Virus record (IMG/VR): IMGVR_UViG_3300028388_004358
Location: 1 to 33,690 of that record
Length of the DNA: 33,690 nucleotides
Reading direction: 5' to 3' (one strand)
Origin: a virus
Below, one piece after another: positions 8,094 through 22,833 of the stretch (within the stretch, counting starts at the first letter, position 1; the number at the start of each line of letters is the position of its first letter). Below the pieces are notes generated by a model that worked only from the letters and a program-made list of their open reading frames with translations, did no database searches and was not told the DNA's origin. A program made the position numbers and the translations under genes.

Positions 8094-8785
8094 TGGCAAA
8101 AACATGGGCCACTCTATTAGAAGAGATTAAAGATGACATGAACCTTCACGGCGAGGACTTTGTTTCTGATGCGGAGCTTTTAGCTTGGGCTAATGATGGC
8201 ATTGAGCAAGCTGAAAAAGAGATCGTTAGCCTTTACGACAAATATTTTGAGACTGACACCACCCTGACTTTGGTGAGTGGCACAGCAAAGTATGATCTTC
8301 CCTCGGATATTATGGCCAACAAGATCACTCATCTTGAATACGACAATGGCACTGTGGAATATGAGGTCCGGTATTTAAAAAGAAAAGATCAGGTTCGCTA
8401 TGTCGATCAGAATGAAAATTATTATTCTTATCGCTTAAGAAACGATTCTGTGAACGGGATGCAAATTGAGGTTTTCCCAACCCCTGATGAGAATGGGGCC
8501 AATATGAAGCTTTATTATATTCGGTCGGTGACAAGGCTTGCGCTTACCACTGATACCATTGAGATCCCCATTGCTGATGCTTTTATCAAGCAATATATTA
8601 AAGACCAAGTGAGGGGAAAGGAGTTAGGCCCCATGTGGGATCATTCCGAAACCCAATCGCTGCAAAAGCAAAGAGCTCTCATGATTGAGGCTCTGCAGAA
8701 CATGGTGCCTGATGATAGTCGAGACGAAATTAGGCCCGATATGAGTTATTACGAAGATCTTTATGACGATTACGAGGTGATATAA
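8093..8785 (+). CDS. Head-tail adaptor protein (phage adaptor / gp11-like)
   Basis: 230 aa. Starts with 'LLEEIKDDMNLHGEDFVSDAELLAWANDGIEQAEKEIVSL', the usual helical N terminus of phage adaptors that ring the portal, then a beta segment ('TTLTLVSGTAKYDLPSDI') and the 'MKLYYIRSVTRL......IPIADAFIKQYIKDQV' part. The acidic C terminus contains 'YYEDLYDDYE'. In podoviruses the adaptor connects portal and nozzle, and here it sits two genes after the nozzle. The stop and the next start overlap (TAATG). Confidence 0.65.
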   Translation: MAKTWATLLEEIKDDMNLHGEDFVSDAELLAWANDGIEQAEKEIVSLYDKYFETDTTLTLVSGTAKYDLPSDIMANKITHLEYDNGTVEYEVRYLKRKDQVRYVDQNENYYSYRLRNDSVNGMQIEVFPTPDENGANMKLYYIRSVTRLALTTDTIEIPIADAFIKQYIKDQVRGKELGPMWDHSETQSLQKQRALMIEALQNMVPDDSRDEIRPDMSYYEDLYDDYEVI

Positions 8786-9930
8786 TGTTAATGAACCCTG
8801 GATTTGAAGGTAAGGGCTTCCATCCCCAAGAAGTCGAGATTGATGGCAAGACTTATACGGCCAAAACCCCGGCAGAGCTTGAGCAATTAAAAACCAAAAA
8901 GCGTAATGCCCAACTGAAAAAAGAGGGCAAGAACCCTGATGGCTCACCAATTAGGCCAGAGTGGGATTCTATGCTCGGCTCTGATGATATGATCGACGAA
9001 AAGTATCAGCTCAATCAGGCTGTGCAAGACTCAATGGCTGATGATGTCGGTTTTGAAAAATTTCAAGATGAGGCGCTAAGAGATGGGCCATCAACTTTTG
9101 CACAATTGATGATGGATCGCCGAGACCTTGATCGCAGAGATCAGTTGGGTGATATAAGTTCGCAGTATCAAATGGGCCTTGCAAACTCCATGGATCAAAT
9201 GGCCGCGCAAGGCGGGATTGGGAGTGGTGCAAGAGAGCGTATGGGGGCTAATTCAATTCGCTCACTCCTTGAAGCAAGACAGGGGGCCCGAAGGGATTAC
9301 AACCGCGATAAGCTTGGCATTATGGCTCAGGATGAACAAAACCGCATTGGTCAACTGCAGAGCTTAACGGGCATGGAAATGGACCGCAATCGCATGGGTC
9401 TACAGGGACGAGAGTTTGATATCACCAACTCACTTCAGGAGCGCGATGCGAGAAGGCAGGCTGACCTTGATAAGTGGACTCAGGAGCGTCAAGACTGGGC
9501 CGGTATTAAGCAGGCCGAGGCTCAAAAAGGGGCTAGTGGTGGATGCTTCCCGGCAGGCACTCTTGTCAAAATGGCTGATGGATCTCAAAAGGCTATTGAG
9601 AAAATTGAGATCGGTGAAGAACTCGAAAGTGGCGGCAAGGTCACTAAAACTATTCAGGGCATAGGCCGCAACGCTGACTGGTATCAGTTCGGGCAAACCT
9701 TTGTTACTGGAGATCATGCGGTGCTGGTTAATAACCAGTGGCTTCGGGTAAAAGACGCCAAGGGCTCTGTGCTCATTGGTGAGACCTTTGATCGTTACTA
9801 CAATCTCTCAACCGAGAATCATGAGATCATTATAAATGACACTGTTTTTTCTGATTTTGATGAGGTCGATGACGTAACGCTTAGTTATGAGGAGTCGTTG
9901 AAGCTCAAGAATGAGGGCGTTTATGTTTGA
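8785..9930 (+). CDS. Virion protein with C-terminal Hint (hedgehog/intein) domain
   Basis: 381 aa. Residues 1-253 are Gln/Arg/Asp-rich helices ('DRRDLDRRDQLGDISSQYQM', 'GGIGSGARERMGANSIRSL') like internal virion proteins. At Cys254 a Hint domain begins: 'CFPAGTLVKMADGSQKAIEK' is block A, and 'VTGDHAVL' carries the block-B T-x-x-H (Thr308, His311); 'YYNLSTENHEIIINDTVFSD' matches the closing block. The usual C-terminal His-Asn followed by Cys/Ser/Thr is absent (Ser-Asp instead), so N-S acyl shift and N-terminal cleavage or transfer could occur, but not protein splicing. Only about 20 residues follow. In hedgehog-type proteins such a domain releases the N-terminal part; that this happens here is inference. 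Confidence 0.65.
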   Translation: MLMNPGFEGKGFHPQEVEIDGKTYTAKTPAELEQLKTKKRNAQLKKEGKNPDGSPIRPEWDSMLGSDDMIDEKYQLNQAVQDSMADDVGFEKFQDEALRDGPSTFAQLMMDRRDLDRRDQLGDISSQYQMGLANSMDQMAAQGGIGSGARERMGANSIRSLLEARQGARRDYNRDKLGIMAQDEQNRIGQLQSLTGMEMDRNRMGLQGREFDITNSLQERDARRQADLDKWTQERQDWAGIKQAEAQKGASGGCFPAGTLVKMADGSQKAIEKIEIGEELESGGKVTKTIQGIGRNADWYQFGQTFVTGDHAVLVNNQWLRVKDAKGSVLIGETFDRYYNLSTENHEIIINDTVFSDFDEVDDVTLSYEESLKLKNEGVYV

Positions 9931-14176: not shown

Positions 14177-14215
14177 TGGGTTTCACTCGTGTAGCCTATC
14201 TTGTGGAGGTTTGTT

Positions 14216-15238
14216 TTGCGTATTGGTCGGGACAATGTGGCTCATTTCGATCTTTTTGGATATGAGTTTGAAAAAGAGTTTTCATCAAAAAAAGAAGCTC
14301 AAATCTTTTTTGAAAACCTAAAGAGGTCATATGTCACTGAGCTTTACCCTGTCGATCATTGCATAGAGAAATACATAAACCTTGTTTCAAAAAAGAAGTC
14401 AAAGGGGTCTTACAGGTGGGATAAGTTTATTTTAAATACCTTCCTTACCTTTCTTGTTCGGGGTGGGATGAAGGAAGATGAGCCGATAACAAGTCTAAAC
14501 CAGTCGCACTTTGAGGGCTTTCAGTCTTATCTTCTGTATGAAAAAGGGCTTAACCCAGCTACCGTGAACCGCTATTTCTCAACGATTAAGAACCTATTTA
14601 ACAAGCTTGTTCAGTGGGAGATGCTCTTAAAGTCCCCGGCCCGTTATGTGAAAAAGCTCCCTGAGAACCCAAAGCCTAAGGCCGTTTGGGGAGAGGAAGA
14701 GTTCTTGCAAGTTAAAAAATCTCTTCACTCAGAAAAGGATAAAGACATTTTTGAGTTTCTTTGGCTGACTGGCGCAAGGATCTCTAGTGCTGCGGATGTA
14801 AGGCTTACTGATATTGATTGGCAACAGGGCTTAATTGCGTTTCGTACAAGTAAAGGGCCAAAGCAAAGCGTCAAGACCTACTATTTCCCGCTTCATGACA
14901 AGCTGTTTAAATTGATAAAAAGAGTTCTTGAGAAAAGGAAAAAATTAACAATTTCTCATAATTACCTTTTTTACGATGACGAACAAAATCCAATAAACTC
15001 AAAAAATTTCACAGGCAGGGTGAGAAAAGTCTTGCTCCGATCAGGGCTCAGGAATAATCATGAGGGCCTTCTTAGCCTTCATGGATTGAGACACTCTCTC
15101 GCTTCAAGGCTTCATGAGGGGGGACTAACGGTCAATGAAATAAAGGGCCTACTCGGTCACTCCTCAGTTACGGTCACAGAAGGGTATATTCATTCTGATG
15201 CCAGCCTACTGAAGTCTAAGATTGAAAATATTGCGTAA
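14216..15238 (+). CDS. int: Tyrosine-family integrase
   Basis: 340 aa from TTG 14216, selected because GGAGG stands 6 bases before it; the upstream in-frame TTG at 14201 has no ribosome site. The enzyme would recombine phage attP with host attB. N-terminal arm-type segment, then a SAM-like core-binding domain (about 60-150, 'NPATVNRYFSTIKNLFNKLV'), then the catalytic domain: Arg in 'WLTGARISSAAD' (about residue 188), a Lys turn ('TSKGPKQSVK'), 'HGLRHSLASRLHEGG' with H-x-x-R, 'LLGHSS', and nucleophile Tyr in 'TEGYIHSD' (about 324). All six catalytic positions are present. The likely attP lies just downstream. Confidence 0.88.
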   Translation: MRIGRDNVAHFDLFGYEFEKEFSSKKEAQIFFENLKRSYVTELYPVDHCIEKYINLVSKKKSKGSYRWDKFILNTFLTFLVRGGMKEDEPITSLNQSHFEGFQSYLLYEKGLNPATVNRYFSTIKNLFNKLVQWEMLLKSPARYVKKLPENPKPKAVWGEEEFLQVKKSLHSEKDKDIFEFLWLTGARISSAADVRLTDIDWQQGLIAFRTSKGPKQSVKTYYFPLHDKLFKLIKRVLEKRKKLTISHNYLFYDDEQNPINSKNFTGRVRKVLLRSGLRNNHEGLLSLHGLRHSLASRLHEGGLTVNEIKGLLGHSSVTVTEGYIHSDASLLKSKIENIA

Positions 15239-17254: not shown

Positions 17255-18133
17255 ATGAATCAATTGTTTGATTGGGAGGGAGAACTCCCCAAGGAAAGCA
17301 TCGAAGAGTATCATCAAAGGGGCGAGTTTTTCTCCTCATCAAACATTAAGGAAATGGGAAAATCGCCATGGCATTACTATAAGAACGTAATCTGTGGCGA
17401 GGGAGAGCCATCCACAAGCCAAGCTCTGGGGACCATTGTTCATGGAGCCCTTCTAGAAGATCGGTTCTCAGAGCTTGTGGCGATCCCGACAAAATGGGAA
17501 ACCATGGCTGATCAAAAAAAGCGCGGGGTGGAAACACCCCGATCAGTCGCTGACCAAAAACAAGACTTCATTAATCACCACGAGGGCTTTGCGGTCTCTC
17601 AAGCTGATTATGAAAAGGTTGAAGGGATGTATGATGCCTTTCACAAAGACTCGCTAGCTCAGTCACTCATTGATAAAGACAACCTCGTTGAGCGTGGCTA
17701 TGCCTATTGGGATAAAGACAGCGAAGTAAAGTGCCGCTTTCGGCCTGATATCATTAACCTCAAAAAGGGTTACATTGTCGATTATAAGACCGCTCGCTCA
17801 GCACGCGAGTCCTCATTTAAGTGGGCTGTCATAAACTATGGTTATCACATCAGTGCGGCTCACTATATGATTGGGGCCGAGAGGCTTTTTCCAGGTGCCA
17901 TTGATACATTTTATTTTATAGTGCAAGAAAATTCACACCCCTTCGCGTGCGCCACCTACCGCTTGTCGGCCACAGACATCATGTTCGGGGCCACACTCCG
18001 CTCTCAATATATTAAGAAAATCCAAAAGTACGCCAAGCTTGAAGAGTGGCCTGGTTACACCATAGACATCAAAGAGTTACAGCTTCCCGATGCGGGATAT
18101 GACATGGAGGATTTCGACAGTGAAGCTCAGTAA
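17255..18133 (+). CDS. PD-(D/E)XK exonuclease, RecE/YqaJ-like
   Basis: 292 aa, strong ribosome site (aaggggggg) before ATG. 'GTIVHGALLED' (His64) is the helix before the catalytic core; 'CRFRPDIINL' gives Asp165 and 'YIVDYKTA' gives Asp176 and Lys178, the D-x-K part of the PD-(D/E)XK site; 'YHISAAHYMIG' is the following helix with the conserved Tyr/His and Gln-like position. This is the layout of RecE-like exonucleases (DUF3799 type) that resect dsDNA ends to give ssDNA for annealing. It completes a recombination set with the Sak4-like ATPase and SSB. The 3' end overlaps the next gene by 14 bp. Confidence 0.75.
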   Translation: MNQLFDWEGELPKESIEEYHQRGEFFSSSNIKEMGKSPWHYYKNVICGEGEPSTSQALGTIVHGALLEDRFSELVAIPTKWETMADQKKRGVETPRSVADQKQDFINHHEGFAVSQADYEKVEGMYDAFHKDSLAQSLIDKDNLVERGYAYWDKDSEVKCRFRPDIINLKKGYIVDYKTARSARESSFKWAVINYGYHISAAHYMIGAERLFPGAIDTFYFIVQENSHPFACATYRLSATDIMFGATLRSQYIKKIQKYAKLEEWPGYTIDIKELQLPDAGYDMEDFDSEAQ

Positions 18134-18671: not shown

Positions 18672-19514
18672 ATGCTCTATGCGATGGCTGAAAACATAGG
18701 GGATAATTTTACCCCTCCGCGCCCGGTTTCACTTGATGAGGCCCGAAGGCTAAATGAGAGCTCAAACACTGGGATCTTTCGGGCTGTGAATGAATTTAAT
18801 GGCCGCAGAAAAAAAGAGTGTCTCAAGGCCATTAAGGCTTGGCACGTTGATATAGATGAGGGCACTAAGCGTGAGCAAATCTTAAAAATCAACAGCTCCC
18901 CAATTTGGCCCTCCCGCGTGGTCGAAAGCAAGAACGGATTCCACGTTTATTTCAACGCAATTGATGCGGAACTCTGTTATCACCGCCTAATTGTGGATGG
19001 TCTGAATCGTTTCTTCGGTGGGGATGAAAAGGCCAAGATGGTGACAGTCCTTTTAAGAGAGCCTGGGTTTTGGCATAAAAAAGACCCTCGCGCGCCCTTT
19101 AAGGTGACAGAACGGATGAATCTTCAGACCCGCTACACCGATGAAGAGATGATGTACTTTTTCCCTGTTGAAAAGAAAAAGGGTCCTCCGATCACCGCTC
19201 TAGAGGCCGAAAAAGCTAATATCAACTTAGACAAGCTGACTGAGTTTTTAGATAACCTGGATCATGAGTGGGCTTTATCAAGGCTCTCAGGGACTGCTTG
19301 GGTTGGTGGTGAGACCTATGAGTTTAAAGATGTGGCCAATGGACATAAGAACATCTGGGTTAATGGGCGCTCGACAAGCTGTTTTATTGACAAGGACAAG
19401 ATGATTGGCGCTGTCCCTGGGGGGCCGAGTATTTTCCAGTGGCTCAAGTATTTCAATTATGACAATCGACAAGTGTACCGAATTTTAAAAGAGGTCTTTA
19501 GTGGGAGAGTCTAA
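18672..19514 (+). CDS. Archaeo-eukaryotic-type DNA primase (RepB-primase-like)
   Basis: 280 aa, starting one base after the previous stop. The three AEP motifs are in order: 'AWHVDIDEG' with Asp60 and Asp62 (metal-binding D-x-D), 'SKNGFHVYFN' with His91, and 'LLREPGFWHKKDPRAPFKV' (128-146), the third motif with its Pro-Gly-Phe and His. The C-terminal region ends with 'GHKNIWVNGRSTSCFIDKDK' and 'PSIFQWLKYFNYD', a pattern also seen ahead of phage helicase domains. It would make primers for replication and overlaps the helicase gene by 14 bp. No polymerase gene is seen. Confidence 0.72.
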   Translation: MLYAMAENIGDNFTPPRPVSLDEARRLNESSNTGIFRAVNEFNGRRKKECLKAIKAWHVDIDEGTKREQILKINSSPIWPSRVVESKNGFHVYFNAIDAELCYHRLIVDGLNRFFGGDEKAKMVTVLLREPGFWHKKDPRAPFKVTERMNLQTRYTDEEMMYFFPVEKKKGPPITALEAEKANINLDKLTEFLDNLDHEWALSRLSGTAWVGGETYEFKDVANGHKNIWVNGRSTSCFIDKDKMIGAVPGGPSIFQWLKYFNYDNRQVYRILKEVFSGRV

Positions 19515-20475
19515 AGATGCTCGGCTTAAAAACTATGATGGCTTCAAATCAGCGAAGGTCTCGGCAAAAGATATTCAGAACCGTCTTCAGCACGCCAAGA
19601 ACAAGGCTATCAAAACAGGCATTGAGGTTGTTGATGATGTCTTTGGTGGGATTTTGCCAAACGACATTGTGCTCCTGGGTGCAAAGACTGGGGTTGGAAA
19701 AACGGCCCTTGCTTCAAAGGTCGCACTTCACAACACGATGCTTGGTAAAAAAATCTATATGTACGCTCTTGAGGCTGAGCCAGAGGAGATTCAGATGAGA
19801 ATTCTCTATGAGCGCTTAGTGGCAAAGGCCAGGGCTTTTAACCCAAAGAAGAAGTATAATTTCAAGCACTGGAGACTTGGAAAGTACGAAGAGCTAAATC
19901 ACTATTATGATGAGTGCCTTGAAGAGCTCAATAACTTTGAAAACCTCTTTATCTATTACCGAAAGCAAGAGTTCGGCATTGATGAATTCATAAAGCTCAC
20001 GATGAGTGTCAAGAACGACGCAGACCTTATCATCATTGATCACATCCACTATTTCGATGGCGTTAACGAAAACGAGGCGCTGAGTGAAGCGATAAAGAAG
20101 ATCCGCGATATCTCTCTTTTAACTGGCGTGCCGGTGGTGATCTTGGCTCACTTGAGAAAGTCTCAGGGAAATGAGTTTAAGTTGGTGCCAAACCTTGATG
20201 ATTTTCATGGGTCCTCAGATCTCTCAAAGGTGTGTACTAAGGGCGTGATCTTGGCCCCTGGGAATCAAAAAGGTGACAGCACGCAGACTCTTTTTTCGTT
20301 TCCAAAGTTTCGGGGCTTTTCAACGCCATCAAAGTTTTTATTTCGCTGTGATTACGACATTTATTTAAACCAATACGCGCCGACCTATACGGTGCATCGA
20401 TTTAAGTACAACACTGTGAAATTAAATTTAGACGAAAACCTAGTAGACCCGGAGGAACTATCGTGGCTTGGCTAA
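19501..20475 (+). CDS. DnaB-like replicative helicase (RecA-fold, SF4)
   Basis: 324 aa, GTG start inside the end of the primase gene. Only the C-terminal ATPase core of DnaB is present: Walker A 'GAKTGVGKT' (60-68), 'IYMYALEAEPEEIQMRIL' (H1a-type Glu), Walker B 'ADLIIIDHIHYFDG' and 'VPVVILAHLRKS' (H3/H4 region with the sensor), then 'LDDFHGSSDLSKVCTKGVIL'. It lacks the DnaB N-terminal domain, like T7 gp4 and plasmid-type helicases paired with a separate primase. Unwinds the fork with the primase encoded just before. Confidence 0.8.
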   Translation: MGESKDARLKNYDGFKSAKVSAKDIQNRLQHAKNKAIKTGIEVVDDVFGGILPNDIVLLGAKTGVGKTALASKVALHNTMLGKKIYMYALEAEPEEIQMRILYERLVAKARAFNPKKKYNFKHWRLGKYEELNHYYDECLEELNNFENLFIYYRKQEFGIDEFIKLTMSVKNDADLIIIDHIHYFDGVNENEALSEAIKKIRDISLLTGVPVVILAHLRKSQGNEFKLVPNLDDFHGSSDLSKVCTKGVILAPGNQKGDSTQTLFSFPKFRGFSTPSKFLFRCDYDIYLNQYAPTYTVHRFKYNTVKLNLDENLVDPEELSWLG

Positions 20476-22005: not shown

Positions 22006-22833
22006 TTGTTGCACTCACTTGATTTATTTACAGGATACGGGGGGATTACGCTTGCACTAGAACCCTGGTGCAAGCCAATAGCTTATGTCGAAATTGAAGA
22101 ATACGCGCAAAGGATTATCGCAGAGAGAATGGCCGATGGGTCTCTCCCAAGAGCTCCAATACTTGCAGATGTCAAAAACATCAAAGGTGAGCCTGGGGAC
22201 TGTGACATCATCGTTGGGGGATTCCCCTGCCAGGACATCAGTGTTGCAGGAAATGGCGCTGGCTTGGAAGGGGAGCGAAGCGGTCTTTTTTACGAAATTG
22301 CTCGCCTTACCAAAGAAATACAGCCCCGTTTTGTTTTTCTCGAAAACGTGCCGGCAATACGCACTAGAGGATTATATCATGTCGCCGAAGAATTTTCCTC
22401 AATGGGGTATGATTGTCGATGGACAATTGTGTCTGCCAACTATGCTGGAGCCCCTCACCAGAGGAAGAGATTTTTCATGCTTGCCCACTCCAGCGGCGAC
22501 AATGGGGGGAGGAAACAGGGGCGGAGCTCAAGGGAGAGTGGGCAAGTTCCGCCCGAGCCTCGAAACAATGGCAAGCAAGGGGATGCTCCCGACTCCGCTG
22601 AGTCGGGATTGGAAAGGTTCAAGTGGAAAAAATCGACACACTCAACAATTACCCAATTTAGTGGAGTCAGATGGCAAGAAATTAAGCCCACGGTTTGTCG
22701 AGGCGATTATGGGCCTAAGACCCGGGTGGACCGAATTAAAGCCCTTGGGAACGGAGTCGTGCCAGCACAAGCAAGATTAGCATTTGAATATTTGTTGGGA
22801 TTGATCGAAACCCAAGACCAAGAGGAGAAGTAG
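22006..22833 (+). CDS. dcm: DNA (cytosine-5) methyltransferase
   Basis: 275 aa, TTG start (a second TTG follows at 22009) after GAGGGGGAG. Motif I 'SLDLFTGYGGITLAL', motif II acid 'YVEIEEYA', motif IV 'GGFPCQDIS' with nucleophile Cys75, motif VI 'FVFLENVPAI', motif VIII 'APHQRKRFFMLA', motif X 'IKALGNGVVPAQA'. All catalytic parts are present, so it should methylate C5 of cytosine and protect phage DNA from host restriction. The recognition region (about 160-235) is short and hydrophilic ('GRKQGRSSRESGQVPPEPRN'). This fits its other role: the complementary frame carries a 231-codon ORF across the same DNA. No cognate restriction nuclease is seen. Confidence 0.88.
   Translation: MLHSLDLFTGYGGITLALEPWCKPIAYVEIEEYAQRIIAERMADGSLPRAPILADVKNIKGEPGDCDIIVGGFPCQDISVAGNGAGLEGERSGLFYEIARLTKEIQPRFVFLENVPAIRTRGLYHVAEEFSSMGYDCRWTIVSANYAGAPHQRKRFFMLAHSSGDNGGRKQGRSSRESGQVPPEPRNNGKQGDAPDSAESGLERFKWKKSTHSTITQFSGVRWQEIKPTVCRGDYGPKTRVDRIKALGNGVVPAQARLAFEYLLGLIETQDQEEK
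22085..22780 (+). CDS. Overlapping-frame ORF nested in the methyltransferase gene
   Basis: 231 aa in the +1 frame relative to dcm and wholly inside it. The protein is not random-looking: 'SPARTS' (47-52) lies opposite motif IV, 'LPTPAA' (133-138) and 'LPTPLSRDWKGSSG' (168-181) lie opposite the recognition region, and 'LSPRFVEAIMG' with 'RPGWTELKPLGTES' (200-225) lies opposite motif X. I recall stand-alone phage proteins next to cytosine methyltransferases with the same elements (SPARTS; LPTP-x-A-x-D-x-K-G; P-x-F-V-E-x-x-M-G-x-x-x-G-W-T-[DE]-L). ATG 22085 has no clear ribosome site, so a later start or coupled re-initiation is possible. Function unknown. Confidence 0.55.
   Translation: MSKLKNTRKGLSQREWPMGLSQELQYLQMSKTSKVSLGTVTSSLGDSPARTSVLQEMALAWKGSEAVFFTKLLALPKKYSPVLFFSKTCRQYALEDYIMSPKNFPQWGMIVDGQLCLPTMLEPLTRGRDFSCLPTPAATMGGGNRGGAQGRVGKFRPSLETMASKGMLPTPLSRDWKGSSGKNRHTQQLPNLVESDGKKLSPRFVEAIMGLRPGWTELKPLGTESCQHKQD

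Follow-up and report, generated by a model that had tools for sequence, protein, structure and literature searches.

A conserved gene in the +1 frame of a phage cytosine methyltransferase gene, probably encoding the recognition and motif IX subunit of a two-chain enzyme

The locus and its two reading frames

Roughly 700 bases that encode two proteins are rare in prokaryotic DNA, and the C5-cytosine methyltransferase gene (dcm) studied here raises the question of whether it is such a case: does its +1 frame encode a protein of its own, and what would that protein do beside the enzyme? The gene lies in a stretch of 33,690 nucleotides from a virus (IMG/VR record IMGVR_UViG_3300028388_004358), which is called the window throughout. 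Genes for an integrase (14201–15238), a DUF3799 (PDDEXK-like) protein (17255–18133) and a DnaB-like helicase (19501–20475) indicate that the window belongs to a temperate-type phage or prophage. At 8785–9930 a 381-aa protein is encoded, with a sub-threshold Hint / Hom_end_hint match at residues 243–293 that is possibly an intein or a Hint remnant.

The methyltransferase frame, named alpha, occupies 22006–22833 of the + strand, on which all the features described for this locus lie; it starts with TTG and encodes 275 aa. Motifs I, IV (PCQ), VI (ENV), VIII (QRxR) and X are all on this one chain, in the order motifs I–VIII, spacer and motif X. The AdoMet-binding motif I, LDLFTGYGG (22018–22044), was recognized by sequence and alignment; motif IV, GGFPCQDIS (22216–22242), carries the catalytic Cys; and motif VIII, QRKRF (22459–22473), is the final catalytic motif upstream of a switch of frame. 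It is followed by a spacer (22486–22725), weakly conserved in the dcm-frame reading yet free of stops, and by motif X, IKALGNGVVPAQARLAFEYL (22735–22794). Motif IX and the recognition domain are missing from the alpha frame and are located in the +1 frame.

This second frame, named beta, extends from an ATG at 22085 to 22780 and encodes 231 aa entirely within alpha and exactly in its +1 frame, as the original prediction described. The sequence blocks quoted there were all found: SPARTS at beta residues 47–52 (about 22223–22240), over the alpha PCQ block, where the bases of motif IV read DSPARTS; two LPTP blocks, at 22481 and about 22586; FVEAIMG..GWTEL; and KPLGTESC over the ALGNGVVP of alpha motif X. 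The N-terminal extension of beta (22085–22480) lies opposite alpha up to motif VIII, and there both frames are constrained, with alpha dominant. The putative target-recognition region (22481–22681) is positioned between motifs VIII and IX, the codon phase flips there, and conservation is higher in beta than in alpha. It is followed by LSPRFVEAIMGLRPGWTEL (FVEAIMG..GWTEL; 22682–22738), a block which in actinophages stands in the alpha frame right before motif X. It had been taken for a partner opposite motif X, but it occupies the place of, and behaves as, the motif IX missing from dcm. The bases of motif X also encode the beta tail, KPLGTESCQHKQD, and here the phase is back to alpha.

Occurrence of the overlap

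A tblastn search of phage records with beta returned eight matches, which came from environmental phages, Bacteroides phages and a cyanophage. When five of the matched regions and an IMG/VR relative were read in all frames, every one proved to have a cytosine methyltransferase gene enclosing a long +1 ORF in which the blocks recur. Single-protein searches of IMG/VR gave one near relative only. Through alignments of beta, 165 loci were gathered, the window included, and beta was exactly +1 to alpha and overlapped it in 165/165. Since these loci had been found through beta, the survey was redone through alpha: among the best 80 IMG/VR relatives of the window alpha, beta was present in +1 in all 80; 74 of them had the motif IX block in beta with motif X in alpha, and no alpha frame contained a canonical motif IX. 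Bacterial and archaeal genomes, searched via beta, showed the same overlap in 80/80 retained loci, ranging over Pseudomonas, Acinetobacter, cyanobacteria, Chloroflexi, Patescibacteria and one archaeal MAG; in all these counts the sequences are related, hence the loci are not independent events. Beta was always accompanied by alpha in every survey, whether made via beta, via alpha or in bacterial and archaeal genomes. The overlap arrangement recurs across hundreds of phages and prophages and in many phyla.

Homologues with the same motifs had no stops in this frame (open in 165/165, 80/80 and 80/80), as against 8–23 stops in the corresponding frame of ordinary enzymes used as controls (E. coli Dcm, a Priestia enzyme and three NotI-type methyltransferases); Dcm and the NotI-type enzymes gave no real match to beta. 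A methyltransferase of a Bifidobacterium longum plasmid (L367, 1492–3192) has a canonical motif IX (RRLTPRECERLQGFP), yet presents a 48-bit match to the N part of beta in +1.

Selection on the two frames

Synonymous shuffling of the alpha codons in 136 distinct loci would put about 557 stops into the beta frame, against an observed count of zero; this figure is partly a matter of ascertainment, as beta had been delimited as an open frame, an effect of which the profile, beta-shuffling and codon-phase tests are free. In the window, the same shuffling gave a mean of 3.8 stops in the +1 frame, and the frame was open in 0 of 300 trials.

Cross-validated profiles were trained solely on unrelated clusters, with alpha-synonymous shuffled DNA as the null. 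Real beta N parts scored 119.5 bits vs 72 in this null (median z 5.4), and the recognition part together with motif IX scored 71 vs 6 bits (median z 12). The corresponding values for the window were 72 bits vs 51 ± 9 in synonymous-shuffled DNA for the N part, and 57 bits vs 7 ± 6 for the recognition part and motif IX. The view that the second frame is a conserved gene is borne out both by the missing stops and by profiles that exceed the shuffled null, and 22085–22780 is, on these sequence comparisons, a real overlapping gene.

The frame of the recognition region and motif IX

The recognition region was compared by frame-free DNA alignment; alignment through the alpha protein proved unreliable. 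In the frame-free alignments, the change rates at alpha codon positions 1/2/3 were 0.181/0.105/0.384 up to motif VIII, 0.385/0.147/0.116 in the recognition region and 0.129/0.050/0.230 in motif X. The third-position substitutions follow the alpha frame up to motif VIII, the +1 frame from VIII to X, and the alpha frame again after that. The switch of phase is sharp, lying no more than six codons past motif VIII, and it is reversed at the GN of motif X; the comparison of the window with one relative (L006), which gave 34/31/60 by beta codon position, is consistent with it. The stretch where beta motif IX lies over alpha RVDRLKA is doubly constrained. This switch at motifs VIII and X indicates that it is the +1 frame, and not dcm, that encodes the recognition region and motif IX.

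The frames were also compared in pairs of loci whose catalytic parts are 80–99% identical, each frame being aligned independently. In the recognition region, the alpha frame showed 30% identity (21–22% when shuffled) and a score of 40, and the beta frame 37% identity and a score of 81. The phase flip and the weak conservation of the alpha frame argue that the alpha stretch is a spacer which must stay open in order to reach motif X. The dcm recognition region had been thought of as merely limited by the other frame; instead, this part of dcm is a poorly conserved spacer, and the recognition region lies in +1. These comparisons make it very probable that beta serves the methyltransferase as its recognition and motif IX subunit; "recognition domain" is here a label given by position, variability and fusion and not by a solved structure. 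Among the functions guessed at for the product, the setting of target choice is the best supported, with the recognition region predicted in the +1 frame.

Database matches and predicted structures

Alpha matched PF00145 (1.9e-38, confined to residues 4–200) and TIGR00675 (5.8e-32, residues 5–172). Beta matched phrog_1008, "DNA methyltransferase" (4.2e-13), which also matches the extreme end (motif X) of alpha, and pieces of beta were spread across several PHROGs, part of them of unknown function. A Pfam search with beta matched no family, and PDB sequence searches with beta profiles gave no match. AlphaFold produced a poor model of beta alone (pLDDT 60.7, pTM 0.37), with which Foldseek found no PDB neighbour. 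A natural single-frame homologue (L264) was modelled instead of an alpha–beta pseudo-fusion, for which there was no sound alignment. The model of this fused protein had a pTM of 0.66, with a confident motif IX/X part (pLDDT 79–95) and an LPTP part (residues 161–279) that was not modelled with confidence (pLDDT < 50); its top Foldseek match was M.HhaI (E 1.4e-12, 383 aligned columns, TM 0.50, rmsd 12.8). The Pfam C-terminus gave no match to the fused actinophage proteins, and motif IX is for this reason named by its place, its fusion and its mobility between frames.

Fused, split and intermediate relatives

Matches of the 231-aa product extend to relatives that do not overlap, in which it corresponds to a second "DNA methylase" gene of actinophages or to an in-frame fusion. 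In mycobacteriophage Wachhund, gp69 is a single ORF of 473 aa with motifs I–VIII, LPTP blocks, F.EWMMGWPAGWVT and IIGNGVVP in that order. In MeeZee (gp78/gp77), Bora (gp6/gp5) and Colucci (gp82/gp83), the gene is split past motif VIII, and the second gene, with LPTP blocks, motif IX and motif X, belongs to those annotated as "DNA methylase". Most of 32 IMG/VR relatives (L254–L285) have LPTP, F.EWMMG..GWVT (motif IX), motifs I–VIII and motif X in one ORF, and in 4/32 LPTP and motif IX are outside the alpha frame. A block which can be used in either frame at one place is best read as motif IX. Three IMG/VR sequences (L276–L278, about 1491–2370) have motifs I–VIII, IX and X in the alpha frame and the LPTP part in +1, and are apparent intermediates in which motif IX has moved to the catalytic frame.

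An overlapping beta has 0–4 LPTP blocks, and actinophages have as many as 7; the blocks are spaced about 30–40 residues apart and differ in number between close relatives, a variation that would fit exchangeable recognition modules.

Insertions were also observed among these proteins. One single-ORF actinophage homologue (L280) has an insertion of more than 50 residues just past the ENV motif, absent from its relatives. Among L257, L258, L262, L268 and L169 (Wachhund), a segment with paired cysteines, LQPGLCQHCAAALRRAEAGEPAL..NDDYCPDP, comes and goes between closely related methylases, and looks like a mobile insertion.

In Wachhund (L169, 1327–1860) and most of L254–L285, the N part of beta is still open and conserved in +1 (50–120 bits), and is kept despite the fusion of the recognition domain and motif IX to alpha. 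Beta might then be a real overlapping gene whose product does not belong to the methyltransferase but has a function of its own, such as inhibiting a methylase or nuclease of the host: its N part is selected beyond alpha and stays in +1 in these actinophages, so that the N part may do something extra. As an account of beta this is improbable, since alpha is without motif IX and without a conserved recognition region while beta has both in the correct order, the same blocks are elsewhere fused in frame to motifs I–VIII and X, and beta was found together with alpha in all surveys. The inhibition of a host enzyme, raised in the original prediction, finds no support.

The start of beta and the double reading of the DNA

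A beta ATG placed 4 bases past the alpha start was seen in 59 of 191 loci, as part of a tandem NTG-A-ATG in which the alpha start codon varies (ATG, GTG or TTG). Asn at alpha codon 2 is AAT, which creates the beta ATG, in 63/66 loci, and AAT accounts for 32% in the remainder of the same genes; this excess indicates that the start of beta is kept. In the window, the beta frame is closed at +4, where many relatives start it. The annotated ATG at 22085 is not preceded by a Shine-Dalgarno sequence and is a tentative start; another candidate is the GTG near 22202, which has AGGTG ahead of it. A later start is possible in the window, for which the start is the weakest point.

Beta-synonymous shuffling of the recognition region in 178 loci led to an expectation of 477 stops in alpha, and none was observed. 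An alpha frame free of stops through this region points to two readings of the same DNA, not one shifted reading. Programmed frameshifting would make a single chain by a +1 shift past motif VIII, reading of the recognition domain and motif IX, and a shift back for motif X; the alpha–beta–alpha phase pattern is as expected of such a chain, and actinophages carry all the parts in one ORF. It is nevertheless very improbable: a shifting ribosome would gain nothing from an alpha frame kept open through the recognition region, nor from a beta frame that is open and under selection long before motif VIII, and the NTG-A-ATG double start indicates two initiations.

That the +1 conservation is a lineage-wide artefact, merely reflecting the conserved methyltransferase frame and its composition, is scarcely credible, for although SPARTS is partly dictated by FPCQDIS and the alpha-derived null already reaches 72 bits in the N part, in the recognition region alpha is barely above shuffled sequence while beta is conserved, the codon phase flips, stops are absent from the beta frame, and ordinary methyltransferases are full of them in the corresponding frame. 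Judged by selection, alpha and beta are a probable same-strand dual-coding pair, in which both frames are selected and neither is explained by the other; for translation of both products, the double start in relatives is an indirect indication.

Comparison with known systems

Multispecific phage C5-methyltransferases, reportedly the subject of work by Trautner et al. in 1996, are said to carry arrays of recognition domains on a single chain in one frame. The present family resembles them in that the interval from motif VIII to motif IX contains several short modules, with an LPTP block every 30–40 residues; those enzymes are single-chain and one-frame, and the LPTP blocks are here putative recognition units.

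M.EcoHK31I is the closest known enzyme, and its small chain is encoded in another frame within the large-chain gene. According to the published description of this enzyme (YGGCCR; Lee, Kam and Shaw 1995, as cited in PMC3404938), motifs I–VIII and X are on the large chain and motif IX is on the smaller one, and both are needed; the predicted recognition domain is described on the large chain, and the small chain has motif IX only. Compared by this description, the window pair has the same division, with motifs I–VIII and X on the large chain and motif IX on the second, but its recognition region evolves in the frame of the small chain. M.EcoHK31I is part of a restriction-modification system, whereas no nuclease was identified beside the window gene. 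M.AquI (CYCGRG) also consists of two polypeptides, the second of which has part of the recognition region, motif IX and motif X (PMC3404938). It is like the present family in being a natural split with recognition region and motif IX on the second chain, and is closest to the actinophage pairs MeeZee gp78/gp77 and Bora gp6/gp5. Unlike in M.AquI, where motif X is on the small chain, in the window it stays on alpha, and the beta gene is wholly inside alpha; motif X on the small chain is found in the split actinophage relatives only.

A second reading frame within the same actinophage methylase gene family has been described as the ShiLan domain, an out-of-frame HNH endonuclease hidden in mycobacteriophage methylases as a mobile insertion (PMC11855218). 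As a nuclease-encoding mobile insertion it is a different element, and the passages describing it contain no account of the beta frame (PMC11855218). The open literature, taken outside subscription journals and REBASE, gave no description of the overlap family, and only M.EcoHK31I, M.AquI and the ShiLan insertion were found there. The original prediction spoke of an attractive new system. This is to be tempered, as motif IX already stands on a second polypeptide in M.EcoHK31I; new with respect to that enzyme are the placing of the recognition domain in the beta frame, the NTG-A-ATG double start, the shuffled LPTP modules and the breadth of the family.

The proposed two-chain enzyme

We consider it highly likely that the overlapping frames specify one two-chain C5-cytosine methyltransferase, with alpha as the catalytic chain and beta as the chain with the recognition domain and motif IX. 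Alpha would supply the AdoMet-binding and catalytic core (motifs I–VIII), the spacer and the terminal motif X; beta, translated separately, would provide the target-recognition domain and the motif IX missing from alpha; and the two would assemble into the usual enzyme of motifs I–VIII, recognition domain, IX and X. In many relatives, one ribosome-binding site may serve both chains via the tandem NTG-A-ATG. The LPTP recognition modules would be swapped and repeated, by which the phage would change its methylation target, most probably as a means of evading restriction by the host. For the window phage we infer the translation of beta, its assembly with alpha, methylation and an anti-restriction purpose.

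A wider proposal, to which we give an even chance, is that the LPTP modules are interchangeable recognition cassettes of a detachable specificity subunit, which move, multiply and change frame (in beta, in alpha or in a separate gene), while the catalytic frame is merely an open spacer. Such a subunit would be the C5 counterpart of HsdS, and would define a large unnamed class in phages.

Significance

This dual coding is found again and again across many phyla, in phages as well as prophages, yet the beta frame has no name of its own. If the two-chain enzyme is real, the specificity of many phage methyltransferases could not be read from the annotated protein, and the enzyme expressed from a recoded construct of the annotated gene alone would be inactive, with consequences for specificity tables and for phage engineering. 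The family also offers a clean and testable case of the domains of one enzyme distributed across two frames, in which fused, split and overlapping forms found in nature serve as intermediates.
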